64,000 nucleotides of DNA, taken from assembly GCA_020831625.1 (NCBI GenBank), contig JAFIGD010000025.1:1-64000 (forward strand), written 5' to 3'. A program made the position numbers and the translations under genes. Below the pieces are notes generated by a model, which had not been told where the DNA came from, did not search any database, and saw nothing but the letters and a program-made list of their open reading frames with translations. This DNA comes from Verrucomicrobiota bacterium (lineage in GTDB: Bacteria > Verrucomicrobiota > Kiritimatiellia > SS1-B-03-39 > UBA6053). Shown here in pieces: positions 5,511 to 53,813 of the stretch (position 1 is the stretch's first letter; the number at the start of each line of letters is the position of its first letter).

Positions 5511-5725
5511 TGACAAGAAAAGCTTCTAACTGAATATGAAAAGAGGGCTTCCCCTGAAAAAGTCGTATCTGTTGAAGCAGTTTTTTTAAAAGCGCGATAC
5601 GGGCTTGCCCGTTGAGCGCAACCATTTCATTTTACGAACAGCGACGCTAAACGCTCTTGCAAGGAATGGGCTTGCCCGTTCCGCGCAGGCATCTTATCCC
5701 GCGCAAAAACTGACAAGAAAAGCTT
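5511..5725. repeat. Two direct 15-bp repeats exactly 200 bp apart, with GGGCTTGCCC hairpins between
   Basis: The 15-mer TGACAAGAAAAGCTT occurs at 5511-5525 and again at 5711-5725. The second copy runs into the stop codon of the RNA methyltransferase. Between them are two copies of GGGCTTGCCCGTT (5601-5613 and 5668-5680), each containing a small inverted repeat. This may be a short insertion flanked by direct repeats, or a terminator-rich spacer. No gene is seen in it. Confidence 0.55.
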
Positions 5726-11969: not shown

Positions 11970-12215
11970 GTGACGAATGTCGAATGACGAGTGTCGAATC
12001 GAAATGCACCAATCACCCCACATTCGTCACTCGTCACTCGTCACTCGTAACTCCCACCACTCGTCACTCGTCACTCGTAACTCCCACCACTCGTCATTCG
12101 TCACTCGTCACTCGTCACTCGTAACTCCCACCACTCGTCACTCGTCACTCGTCACTCGTAACTCGTAACTCCCACCACTCGTCACTCGTCACTCCCACCA
12201 CTCGTCATTCGTCAC
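11970..12215. repeat. CACTCGT heptamer array with AACTCCCAC interruptions
   Basis: About 245 bp between ccoP and ccoG are almost wholly heptamers CACTCGT, with CATTCGT and TAACTCGT variants, in short runs ended by AACTCCCAC. The run-plus-terminator block is repeated about six times, giving a higher-order structure. It ends a few bases before the ccoG ATG and leaves no normal ribosome site. A second smaller array of the same heptamer lies at 53731-53813. Confidence 0.9.
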
Positions 12216-12217
12216 TC

Positions 12218-45744: not shown

Positions 45745-46077
45745 TTATATATTATCGTCTAAAAAGAATTCCACCTTTTCCCTGAATTCCCTGCTGAAGG
45801 CCTGCAGCGTTTCCCGGTCAATCATTTGATGCCGACACATCGCCAGGATGGAAAGAGCCATGTTCGACCTTGAAAAGCGACCGAAAGCATCTGCGAGAAT
45901 TTTCTGATCTTTCTCCATTTTATGAAAAGCGTCCCAAAAACGTTCCGTATGATTCCTTTCAGGATCCGACAGAATCACCGTCACTTCCTGATTAATCCTG
46001 TGCAGAAAACGCTCGCGGGCCGGAGCCACCAGCTTTTTGTAAAGCGTCCAATCGGATTCATTCGGAGTAAAATTCAT
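45745..46077 (-). CDS. Hypothetical small protein
   Basis: About 110 residues from ATG 46077, which has an AGGTGA ribosome site eight bases upstream; a longer frame from 46116 is less likely. The protein is mostly helical and charged (RERFLHRINQEVTVILSDPE, FWDAFHKMEKDQKILADAF, DRETLQAFSREFREKVEFF), with no signal peptide or membrane segment. I do not recognise the family. Its position upstream of the toroid-like protein on the same strand, separated by a repeat, does not reveal a role. Confidence 0.6.
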   Translation of the reverse strand: MNFTPNESDWTLYKKLVAPARERFLHRINQEVTVILSDPERNHTERFWDAFHKMEKDQKILADAFGRFSRSNMALSILAMCRHQMIDRETLQAFSREFREKVEFFLDDNI

Positions 46078-46154
46078 AGTGACTTCACCTGTTAAAAAAA
46101 TTTCCGCACCGTCCAAGCAAAAACGTTCGTTGTTTGACGCCCACCCCTCCCGCT

Positions 46155-47345
46155 CCCACCCCTCGCCCTCCGAGCTTGCTCGGTCAAGGGCGAAATCATC
46201 TCATTCCACGAATCAGCGACCAAAAACAACCCGCGATCTTCGAGCTTGCCTCGTGGATCGCACCCCATCTTATCCAGCGGAGAAATGAGTGAATACCACG
46301 GATGTTTGCCCGCCGCAGGTGGGTTGAAAGGCATAAGAGATCAAAAGTGGATTCGGACAGGGGATTAAGATTACGATTAAGATTAAGATTAAGATTAAGA
46401 AACGGACATCCGTGGTCCGGCAAGGCTATCCGTGGATTTCCTCCTTTTCCATTCGCGGGACGGCAAGGCTATTCGCGGGGCCCCATCCCCGCACCCATCC
46501 GTTGTCCGGCGAACCGCCAAAAAATATATGCCCCCACCCCTCGCCCTCCGAGCTTGCTCGGTCAAGGGCGAAACCATCTCATTCCACGAATCAGCGACAA
46601 AAAAACAACCCGCGATCTTCGAGCTTGCCTCGTGGATCGCACCCCATCTTATCCAGCGGAGAAATGAGTGAATACCACGGATGTTTGCCCGCCGCAGGTG
46701 GGTTGAAAGGCATAAGAGATCAAAAGTGGATTCGGACAGGGGATTAAGATTACGATTAAGATTAAGATTAAGATTAAGAAACGGACATCCGTGGTCCGGC
46801 AAGGCTATCCGTGGATTTCCTCCTTTTCCATTCGCGGGACGGCAAGGCTATTCGCGGGGCCCCATCCCCGCACCCATCCGTTCTCCTTTTCCATTCGCGG
46901 GACGGCAAGGCTATTCGCGGGGCCCCATCCCCCGCACCCATCCGTTGTCCGGCGAACCGCCAAAAAAAATATGCCCCCACCCCTCGCCCTCCGAGCTTGC
47001 TCGGTCAAGGGCGAAATCATCTCATTCCACGAATCAGCGACCAAAAACAACCCGCGATCTTCGAGCTTGCCTCGTGGATCGCACCCCATCTTATCCAGCG
47101 GAGAAATGAGTGAATACCACGGATGTTTGCCCGCCGCAGGTGGGTTGAAAGGCATAAGAGATCAAAAGTGGATTCGGACAGGGGATTAAGATTACGATTA
47201 AGATTACGATTAAGATTAAGATTAAGATTAAGAAACGGACATCCGTGGTCCGGCAAGGCTATCCGTGGATTTCCTCCTTTTCCATTCGCGGGACGGCAAG
47301 GCTATTCGCGGGGCCCCATCCCCCGCACCCATCCGTTGTCCGGCG
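46155..47345. repeat. Three-copy tandem repeat (378-443 bp units) with hexamer cores
   Basis: Near-identical units start at 46155, 46533 and 46976. Unit 2 is 65 bp longer because an internal block of about 63 bp (CTCCTTTTCC...CATCCGTT, starting 46820 and 46883) is duplicated. Unit 3 ends at about 47345. Each unit holds a GAGCTTGCTCGG hairpin-like part, an ACCACGGATGTTTGCCCGCC block, GATTAA/GATTAC hexamers (46363-46399, 46742-46778, 47184-47233; about 6, 6 and 8 copies) and CATTCGCGGGACGGC. Together with flanks it fills the 1.3 kb between 46078 and the deoB start. Short open frames recur in each unit but look non-coding. Confidence 0.93.
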
Positions 47346-47388: not shown

Positions 47389-48576
47389 ATGAACACGAAA
47401 CGCGTTTTTCTCATCGTCATGGATTCTGTGGGAATCGGCTCCGCCCCGGACGCCGCCGACTACGGGGATGCCGGCGCGGCAACCCTCCAGCACACCGCCC
47501 AGGCCGTCGGCGGCCTTAAGCTCACCGCCTTCGAAGCCGCCGGACTGGCCAATATCCTTTCACTCCTACCCGATCAAGGACCGATCACCGGCATCCGGCC
47601 CGCCGCCGCGCCCGCCGCATCCTGGGGCGCCATGCGCGAGCGCTCCGAAGGCAAAGACACCATCACCGGCCACTGGGAAATCGCCGGCCTCCTCCTCAAA
47701 CCCGGCTTCCACACCTTCCCGGTCAAAACCCCCGCCTTCCCCAAAGAACTCACCGACGCCCTCAACGCCGCCACCGGACACCCCCTGCTTGGCAACTGCC
47801 ACGGCAGCGGCACCGACATGATCGACCGCTTTGGCGGCGAAGCCCGCGAGCGCAAAGCCCTGATCGTCTACACCAGCGCCGACTCCGTCTTTCAGATCGC
47901 CGCCCACGAAGACGCCGTCCCCCTCAAGCAACTCTATGCCGCCTGCGAAACCGCGCGCGAACTCTGCAACCCCTACCGCGTCGGCCGCGTCATCGCCCGT
48001 CCCTTCACCGGAACCTCCGGCAGCTACACCCGAACCGCCAACCGCGTCGATTACGCCTACGAAACCGAGGAACCCACCATCCTTCAGCACCTCCAACAGC
48101 ATCAGGTGCCCGTATACAGCGTCGGCAAAATCGAAGACATCTTCGCACACCGCGGCATCACCCAAGGCTGGCACACCGGCGACAACGCCGCCTCCATGGC
48201 TCAAACCAAAGAACTGCTCGAAACCCTCGACCACGGTTTCGTTTTCGCCAATTTCATCGACTTCGATATGCTCTACGGTCACCGCCGCGCTCCACGCGGC
48301 TATGCCGACTGCCTGGAACACATGGACACCTGGCTCGCCGAAATCCTCCCGCTCCTGCGCGAAAACGACACCCTCATCCTCACCGCCGATCACGGCAACG
48401 ACCCCGTCTTCAAAGGCACCGACCACACCCGCGAGCACGTCCCCCTGCTCGTCTTCCAACCCGGCGCGGCCGCCCGCGAACTCGGCATCCGCGACGGATT
48501 TTACGATATCGCCCAAACCGTCGCACATCTCTTCGACGTCCCGCCCATGACCCGCGGGAAATCCCTTTTCTCCTGA
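47389..48576 (+). CDS. deoB: Phosphopentomutase
   Basis: A 395-residue alkaline-phosphatase-superfamily enzyme interconverting ribose-1-phosphate (or deoxyribose-1-phosphate) and the 5-phosphates in nucleoside salvage. Metal-site segments are visible: VMDSVGIGSAPDA (about 10-22), SEGKDTITGHWE with the phosphorylated Thr (about 85-96), NFIDFDMLYGHRR (about 287-299), TADHGNDP (about 330-337) and HTREHVPLLVF. Length is normal. It starts shortly after the three-copy tandem repeat, so its promoter region is unusual. MnhE follows after 13 bases. Confidence 0.96.
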   Translation: MNTKRVFLIVMDSVGIGSAPDAADYGDAGAATLQHTAQAVGGLKLTAFEAAGLANILSLLPDQGPITGIRPAAAPAASWGAMRERSEGKDTITGHWEIAGLLLKPGFHTFPVKTPAFPKELTDALNAATGHPLLGNCHGSGTDMIDRFGGEARERKALIVYTSADSVFQIAAHEDAVPLKQLYAACETARELCNPYRVGRVIARPFTGTSGSYTRTANRVDYAYETEEPTILQHLQQHQVPVYSVGKIEDIFAHRGITQGWHTGDNAASMAQTKELLETLDHGFVFANFIDFDMLYGHRRAPRGYADCLEHMDTWLAEILPLLRENDTLILTADHGNDPVFKGTDHTREHVPLLVFQPGAAARELGIRDGFYDIAQTVAHLFDVPPMTRGKSLFS

Positions 48577-52522: not shown

Positions 52523-53740
52523 TTACGCGGACAGCCCGGTCAAAGACAAAATCCCTTCCGCCATTTCCCGGCCGATCCGCTGACGGTCAAAGCAGCGCTC
52601 CGCGGTCTGACGCGCCGCCGCCGACATCTTTCTCCTCAATTCAGCGTCCTCCGCCAGGCGCAGCACCGCGCGGTCAAAATCCACTCCGCAACCCGGATCC
52701 ACCAGGAACCCCTCCCGTCCGTCCTCGACAACCTCCATCATGCCCTCCAGACGCGCCGCGATCACCGGAAGGCCGCAACACAGATTGTGCACCAGCGTGC
52801 TGGTGATGTGAAAATGATCTCCCGGAAGCCCCACCCGGATCGCCAGTCCCGCGTCCGCCGCGTTCAGAGCCTCCGCCACCTCGCGCAAACTGCCCAGCCA
52901 GCCGGTGCAACGCACAAGATCCCCGACCCCCAACGCCACAATCCGCTCCTGAACCCGCTCCGCCTCCGGCCCCTCACCAATCAGCAGAAGGCGAATCGAC
53001 GGCAGCCGATTCCGCAGCCGCGCCACCGCCTCCACAATCCGCACATTGCCCTTGTTCGGATGCATGACCCCGTGATGCACCAACAGAAACGCCCCCTCAT
53101 CAATTTTCCACTTCGCCCGCGCCGCCTCACGGTTTCCCGGCGCGAAAAGGGTGAGATTTCCCGGATCATGCGCCACCACGATTTTCGCCTCGGGAATTCC
53201 CGCCGACACCAAAGAATTTCGCGCCGCCTCCACCCGCACAAAAAAACGGTCCACTTTCCGCCACGACCGTTGGTCCAGCCGGTGAATCCACCCGGCCGGC
53301 TTCCGGAAACGGTGTGTCTCTCCGAAATACATCTCCAGAAACGAATCATGCACCGTCAACGCCACCGCGCCGCCATACCCCATGCGCAGCAGCAGAACCG
53401 ACATTGGCAGCGTTTCATCCAAAAAGACCGCCCTGAAGCCGCGCAGCCGTAAATACAGGCCCAGCCAGGGCAGCAACGCCAGCCACAAAAACATCTTCGC
53501 CCGCTTGTCACCCTCCACCCCCCGCCGCACCCGGAACGGTAACCGGTGAACCTTCAATGGAAGCGCCCTCAGTTCCTCCCGCGCCTCACCGCCCCGAAAA
53601 CCGAAGTGATGCACCTCACAGTGCGCCTCCAACCCGCGGACCAACTCGGGCAACGCCGGCAAAAAATCAAGATGCTCCCCGGCCCCGTATCGAAACAATA
53701 TCGCGACTTTTTCCCGGTCAGGAGTTTTTTTATTCATCAT
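52523..53740 (-). CDS. Family 4 glycosyltransferase
   Basis: A 405-residue GT-B enzyme. The N-terminal acceptor domain (about 1-190) includes FRYGAGEHLDFLPALPELV. The C-terminal nucleotide-sugar domain carries LLVHHGVMHPNKGNVRIVEAV, RLLLIGEGPEAE, VRCTGWLG, and the GT4 donor-site region NLCCGLPVIAARLEGMMEVVEDG with its conserved Glu. It likely builds a surface polysaccharide; donor and acceptor are unknown. It lies at the edge of the cassette cluster, with a heptamer array at its upstream side. Confidence 0.86.
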   Translation of the reverse strand: MMNKKTPDREKVAILFRYGAGEHLDFLPALPELVRGLEAHCEVHHFGFRGGEAREELRALPLKVHRLPFRVRRGVEGDKRAKMFLWLALLPWLGLYLRLRGFRAVFLDETLPMSVLLLRMGYGGAVALTVHDSFLEMYFGETHRFRKPAGWIHRLDQRSWRKVDRFFVRVEAARNSLVSAGIPEAKIVVAHDPGNLTLFAPGNREAARAKWKIDEGAFLLVHHGVMHPNKGNVRIVEAVARLRNRLPSIRLLLIGEGPEAERVQERIVALGVGDLVRCTGWLGSLREVAEALNAADAGLAIRVGLPGDHFHITSTLVHNLCCGLPVIAARLEGMMEVVEDGREGFLVDPGCGVDFDRAVLRLAEDAELRRKMSAAARQTAERCFDRQRIGREMAEGILSLTGLSA

Positions 53741-53813
53741 TCATCACTCATCATTCCTAACGCGTCTTTAATGATTCGTCACTCGTCACTCGTCATTCGT
53801 CACTCGTCACTCG
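53731..53813. repeat. CACTCGT/CATTCAT heptamer array, second locus
   Basis: Runs of CATTCAT/CACTCAT (about 53736-53757) and CACTCGT/CATTCGT (about 53777-53813) fill the gap between the GT4 start and the serine hydrolase stop, and even supply the last codons of the latter. The CACTCGT heptamer is the one seen at 11970-12215. Confidence 0.85.

Follow-up and report, generated by a model that had tools for sequence, protein, structure and literature searches.

A tandem array upstream of a deoB-like gene in a Kiritimatiellia genome as a probable local triplication of a REP/BIME-like half-element with a GATG foot

Three near-identical units lie in tandem at positions 46155-47345 of the window (the whole stretch of 64,000 nucleotides of a Kiritimatiellia draft genome analysed here), raising the question of what kind of element has been multiplied at this locus and by what means. 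The units, read on the plus strand, measure 378 bp (46155-46532), 443 bp (46533-46975) and 370 bp (46976-47345) and are 99-100% identical where aligned: units 1 and 3 agree at all 357 aligned positions, and units 1 and 2 at 375 of 378 (3 substitutions) if the one additional 64-bp block of unit 2 is left aside. This block forms, on the plus strand at 46820-46950, a duplication of about 63-64 bp that includes the ATTCGCGG unit described below; unit 3 carries 12 further bases, i.e. two more hexamers, and stops 22 bp early. The TRF scores of the array (1434 and 1522) mean that it is not due to chance. The sequence-only reading had described three such units, whose length differences it ascribed to an internal duplication and to hexamer number, and on both points it was accurate; its view of a modular, recently amplified array also holds, as the copies are near-identical and none of the three congeners (G001, G002 and G003) has the array upstream of deoB, G003 presenting a single ATTCGCGG-type unit there. 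To the left, a divergent minus-strand ORF (45745-46116) encodes a hypothetical protein of 123 aa with no Pfam match; to the right, 43 bp past the array, starts a plus-strand gene (47389-48576) resembling phosphopentomutase by its sequence relatives, which we take, from general knowledge of this protein family, to be deoB. A coding function of the array itself was dropped because the ORFs over it are short and the hexamers translate as RLRLRL, and a tRNA/tmRNA search retrieved none.

The sequence-only reading had also proposed to search for the unit elsewhere. One unit used as query matched 116 places on many contigs of its own genome; the exact-tip pattern gave 0 hits in 84,980 GTDB species genomes, a collection in which the own genome is probably masked. 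In the own genome the pattern GATG-N9-16-GAGCAAGCTC occurs 91 times, versus 0 in the reversed control, and the family takes the form of a mosaic of about 28 intergenic clusters. They lie between predicted genes, overlapping short and doubtful ORFs only, and two of the places listed are stray tip matches. About 20 clusters were inspected and have a common module order, i.e. ATCCGTGG units, hairpins H1 and H2, hairpins H3 and H4 on the other strand, a (GATTAN)n tract and again ATCCGTGG/ATTCGCGG units. The full element is thus T-H1-H2-H3-H4-(GATTAN)n-T/C, with four imperfect hairpins of which the first two are inverted with respect to the last two. Many clusters are partial, retaining H1-H2 only, H4 only or H3/H4 hybrids. 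Of the four hairpins the window copy retains H1 and H2 alone, its right half being lost; they are followed by a spacer (unit 1, about 46304-46332) for which the loci we examined hold a single other, divergent match. What was multiplied locally is thus a half-element. About 22 further hairpins of this genome combine the GATG foot with a GGGCAAGCCC tip, one site being a minus-strand doublet within the window (approximately 5590-5700, pattern match at 5668-5693), and GATG-footed hairpins with other tips are found singly as well as in same-strand pairs. Short tandem arrays of TCGTCAC-type heptamers are also present in the window (12024-12217 and 53732-53813), and the same heptamers lie beside several of the hairpin clusters at other places in the genome.

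Read in the same sense, the four hairpin classes are built alike: a GATG foot, in most cases as GAGATG or AAGATG, is separated by 2-4 bases from an imperfect palindrome tipped GAGCAAGCTC. In the array all hairpins are on the minus strand. H1 of unit 1 (46163-46193, tip CGAGCAAGCTCG) has its GAGATG foot at 46197-46202 and H2 (46233-46261, tip CGAGGCAAGCTCG) its AAGATG foot at 46266-46271; H1 recurs at 46541-46571 in unit 2 and at 46984-47014 in unit 3, and H2 at 46612-46640 and 47054-47082, respectively. Foot and tip are near-invariant among copies (the GATG foot and the greater part of the tip are among the invariant H1/H2 positions) and the stems vary. Stem cells altered on both sides number 5 in H1 versus 1.3 in shuffles, and 7 in H2 versus 2.5, some of the compensated changes giving U-G pairs. 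The basal pair of H1 has been seen as G-C, U-A, A-U and C-G, a four-way change which shows that the stem is maintained and which would be compatible with the DNA as well as the RNA level. With H1 and H2 on one strand and H3 and H4 on the opposite one, the order is nested and inverted (H1/H4 and H2/H3 arms), which allows a full copy to form either four arms or a single long nested hairpin. The hairpins that the earlier reading saw in the array are indeed present: the H1-H2 segment of the window folds with z = -3.0, and for a complete copy with four hairpins at another locus z is -5.2. Hybrid hairpins joining the left arm of H3 to the right arm of H4 (L024 at 3143 and 3629, L029 at 3369) suggest that hairpins may have recombined through their common tip.

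The other modules of the array have distributions of their own. The (GATTAN)n tracts (plus strand; 46363-46400, 46742-46779 and 47184-47233 in units 1 to 3) keep a fixed orientation to the hairpins, the strand of the hexamer being that of the cluster in 27 of 28 tracts. Their earlier description as telomere-like fits only the look of the hexamer, since its 325 overlapping matches in the own genome include many internal sites of long contigs and are not confined to replicon ends; a telomere repeat was accordingly rejected. The tract is frequent in this genome and in G001 and sparse in the rest of the class. GATTAN tracts often stand as inverted pairs around 20-200 bp, several of them directly 3' of genes (L074 in G052; L072 and L079 in G001), as if forming long hairpins. 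Two 28-bp direct-repeat units complete the picture on the plus strand: ATCCGTGG-TC-CGGCAAGGCT-ATCCGTGG (46408-46435 in unit 1, recurring in units 2 and 3) and ATTCGCGG-GA-CGGCAAGGCT-ATTCGCGG (46451-46478 in unit 1, twice in unit 2 and once in unit 3). Their general plan is octamer-NN-CGGC-N3-7-octamer, in which both octamers, with few exceptions, belong to one and the same variant (ATCCGTTG, ATCCGTGG or ATTCGCGG). This unit has 58-89 copies per genome in the whole genus (four members, G000, our genome, to G003) and in G009, and practically none elsewhere. The H1 foot pattern with one mismatch, on the other hand, occurs 37 times in the own genome, once in the congener G002 and twice, scattered, in 288 genomes of the class. 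Given these differing distributions, the array combines repeats from no fewer than three families that differ in age. A homologous cluster in the sister species G002 contains the four hairpins in order, their tip being different and self-compensated (CGGGCTTGCCCG); a few hairpins with the GATG foot and the GGGCAAGCCC tip also occur in G002 and G009. Neither a target duplication nor a precise empty site was seen, the intergenic DNA of the relatives being too diverged for an exact junction, and our literature search found nothing specific on the hexamer tracts or on Kiritimatiellae repeats.

A link between such hairpins and a transposase comes from related genomes. The complete genome G008, from the same family, encodes a Y1/IS200-like protein of 259 aa whose gene lies between hairpins GAGATGTTCTTGGTCTCCGGGGCAAGCCCGAAGACCGCTGG, a group of three at one end and a group of six at the other, arranged in tandem and mostly in one orientation, some of them with a GACG foot or a GCGAGC tip. 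The protein scores 65.4 bits against Y1_Tnp (PF01797) and 61.4 bits against IS200 (NF033573, cut-off 55), and its 20.8 bits against the RAYT model NF047646 are under the 80-bit cut-off. Homologues are encoded in G010, G004, G007, a second time in G008 and, within our own genus, in G001, also among hairpins, most of them tipped GC(A/G)AGC. Related hairpins flank Y1 genes in G008, G010 and G001; the linked hairpins of G004, G007 and G001 have the tip in common, their GATG foot being unclear. The alignment of H2 with the transposase-linked hairpins of G008 and G010 beats 1000 of 1000 dinucleotide shuffles, as does that of a GGGC-tip hairpin of the own genome, a comparison that gauges sequence similarity and not descent; H1, H3 and H4 taken individually are not above shuffles. 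In G001 a transposase-adjacent hairpin bears the very tip of the window's H2 and is dispersed on several other contigs. No homologue of the hairpin-flanked Y1 transposase was found in the own assembly (96% complete, fragmented), so that the copies here are probably orphans of a transposase type kept in relatives. In the Y1 proteins flanked by hairpins (L249, L253, L254, L261-L263 and L255) a PDHxH motif is present and a Y-x-G-(T/S)-x-G segment is conserved, but some of them do not clearly show the C-terminal tyrosine motif that is otherwise usual.

Three IS200-like and three RAYT-like genes of the own genome were considered as source of the cognate enzyme and rejected because the palindromic or tandem repeats around them are different ones; 30 NF047646 loci from 11 genomes were examined, and the focal hairpins were near none of these. 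The own RAYT and IS200-like genes (L044 and L041-L043) lie within palindromes of their own (GGAGCGCCGGTCTCCGCACCGGC; CCCCGGAGGGGC; GCCCCGTTGGGGC), so that several REP-like families are probably present in the genome. At L190 (about 1500-2100; G000:C91:54513-54911) a RAYT-like gene of 188 aa has GGAGTGC/GGAATGC heptamer tracts and different palindromes on both sides, a further case in which hairpins and short tandem repeats form a mosaic.

REP-type repeats and their single-strand transposases are best known from Proteobacteria. As marks of a REP we took an imperfect palindrome of 20-50 nt in many extragenic copies, a 5' GTAG/GTRG foot and a cognate flanked RAYT in the genome. The 91 GATG-tagged hairpins and the about 22 with the other tip agree with the first of these in size, number and position between predicted genes. 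Their conserved foot is GATG, 2-4 nt off the stem, and not GTAG/GTRG, and a cognate RAYT was not found in the own assembly; for these two reasons the family is not classed as a GTAG REP. Inverted pairs with a linker and a joint fold, as in BIMEs and REPINs, are present in the family, the window copy itself being H1-H2 only. The likeness to the REP/BIME elements of E. coli, Pseudomonas and Stenotrophomonas with their TnpA-REP (RAYT) lies in the short imperfect palindromes, their many intergenic copies, the mosaics of inverted pairs, the constant 5' motif and tip, the variable stem and the hairpins flanking a Y1 gene, here in relatives. Unlike them, the present family has a GATG foot a few bases off the stem instead of GTAG/GTGG at the stem, four nested hairpins instead of a pair, an attached polar hexamer tract with 28-bp direct repeats, and no cognate gene found in the genome. 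The TnpA-REP enzyme is known from its biochemistry to read the foot motif and hairpin features (PMC8266576). In P. fluorescens SBW25, REPINs are inverted doublets folding into one long hairpin and form tandem clusters that include flanks, with up to four REPINs over more than 700 bp (PMC3116915), a situation recalling ours except that here there are two nested doublets, four diverged hairpin classes and no adjacent RAYT. Class 3 TnpA-Y1 'REPtron-like' genes have atypical hairpins with a CnGA foot (PMC6006769, whose main text does not mention Kiritimatiellia or Verrucomicrobia); the non-GTAG foot, the hairpins around a Y1 gene and the dispersed copies are common to both cases, but here the foot is GATG, and the comparison is drawn from these features of hairpins and gene context. 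TIRYTs and TIRtrons likewise are Y1 genes with non-GTAG flanking repeats and TIR families dispersed in the genome, their flanks consisting of one long terminal inverted repeat and not, as in the relatives studied here, of tandem hairpins (PMC3733652). As atypical feet and missing REPtrons (PMC6006769, PMC3733652) and tandem REPIN clusters have already been described, the triplication is not exceptional in kind. The earlier statement that no known element type explains the array is not supported, given the dispersal of its REP/BIME-like hairpins and their resemblance to those around the Y1 transposase of related genomes.

The three-unit copy number rests on a draft assembly (4.89 Mb, 111 contigs) whose contigs are often broken at the family: eight of the about 28 clusters are at most 110 bp from a contig end, an indication that the assembler struggled with these repeats. 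A triplication created during assembly, by multiplication of a single copy or by merging reads of dispersed clusters, would accord with this fragmentation and with the identity of units 1 and 3 over 357 nt, which exceeds short-read length. The three differences among units (the 64-bp block, two hexamers and 3 substitutions) nonetheless speak against a simple loop, the spacer, whose only other match among the loci examined is divergent, is not easily derived from reads of other clusters, and tandem copies occur in other clusters too (L023 and L030), so that we consider an artefact improbable. The nested inverted arms could also be taken for the end or remnant of a larger conventional transposon, or for a MITE with terminal inverted repeats. 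We regard this as very improbable, as an internal gene is absent, the clusters are often partial, and hairpins with other tips also occur outside any inverted arrangement, as single copies or same-strand pairs.

An alternative of a different nature is that the hairpins are RNA-level elements under selection (terminators, mRNA stabilisers or protein-binding RNA sites) spread by recombination and not by transposition. The intergenic position of the clusters and the compensated stems with some U-G pairs are in keeping with such a role, as is a T run that follows many H2 copies on their own strand when the sequences are read directly (a pattern count gave 0, the pattern being probably faulty). However, terminator-like sites in the array region (6) do not exceed those in shuffles (3.8 +/- 2.1) and number 0 in another full cluster, and regulation by intrinsic terminators was rejected on this basis. 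In addition, the window is without an Rfam match, the array lies 5' of deoB and not behind a gene, its left neighbour being divergent, and the near absence of the family in congeners is more readily explained by a mobile burst than by a conserved regulator. An RNA-level origin thus appears distinctly unlikely.

The best reading of the repeats is that of non-autonomous REP/BIME-like elements with an atypical foot (GATG, not GTAG) that underwent recent tandem amplification at this locus; the array is probably a local triplication of a half-element of this species-specific dispersed family, spread in trans by a Y1 transposase and orphaned here. According to this reading a Y1 (HUH) transposase acting in trans would recognize the hairpins as single-stranded DNA, as TnpA-REP does with REPs, and spread them between genes, and the hexamer tracts and 28-bp direct repeats would accumulate or travel with them. 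The triplication upstream of deoB would have arisen later, when short repeats recombined or slipped against one another. The existence of the family, its architecture, the covariation of the stems, the fixed polarity and the linkage of related hairpins to the transposase in relatives are observed; it is the spread in trans, the loss of the transposase gene and the way in which the array was amplified that we infer. It is tempting, if still doubtful, to go further and speculate that the four nested GATG hairpins and the polar hexamer tract constitute a spreading unit served by a class of hairpin-flanked Y1 transposases with a GATG guide motif (PDHxH, extra N-terminal domain), and that in this species the unit may have persisted after loss of the resident enzyme, one tip variant having replaced another in all hairpin classes. 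In any case, arrays linked to a transposase, dispersed copies, orphans and the replacement of one tip by another among sister species can all be observed in related genomes for this non-GTAG family of Kiritimatiellia, which makes it possible to test how hairpins and enzyme co-evolve and how repeats outlive their enzyme.
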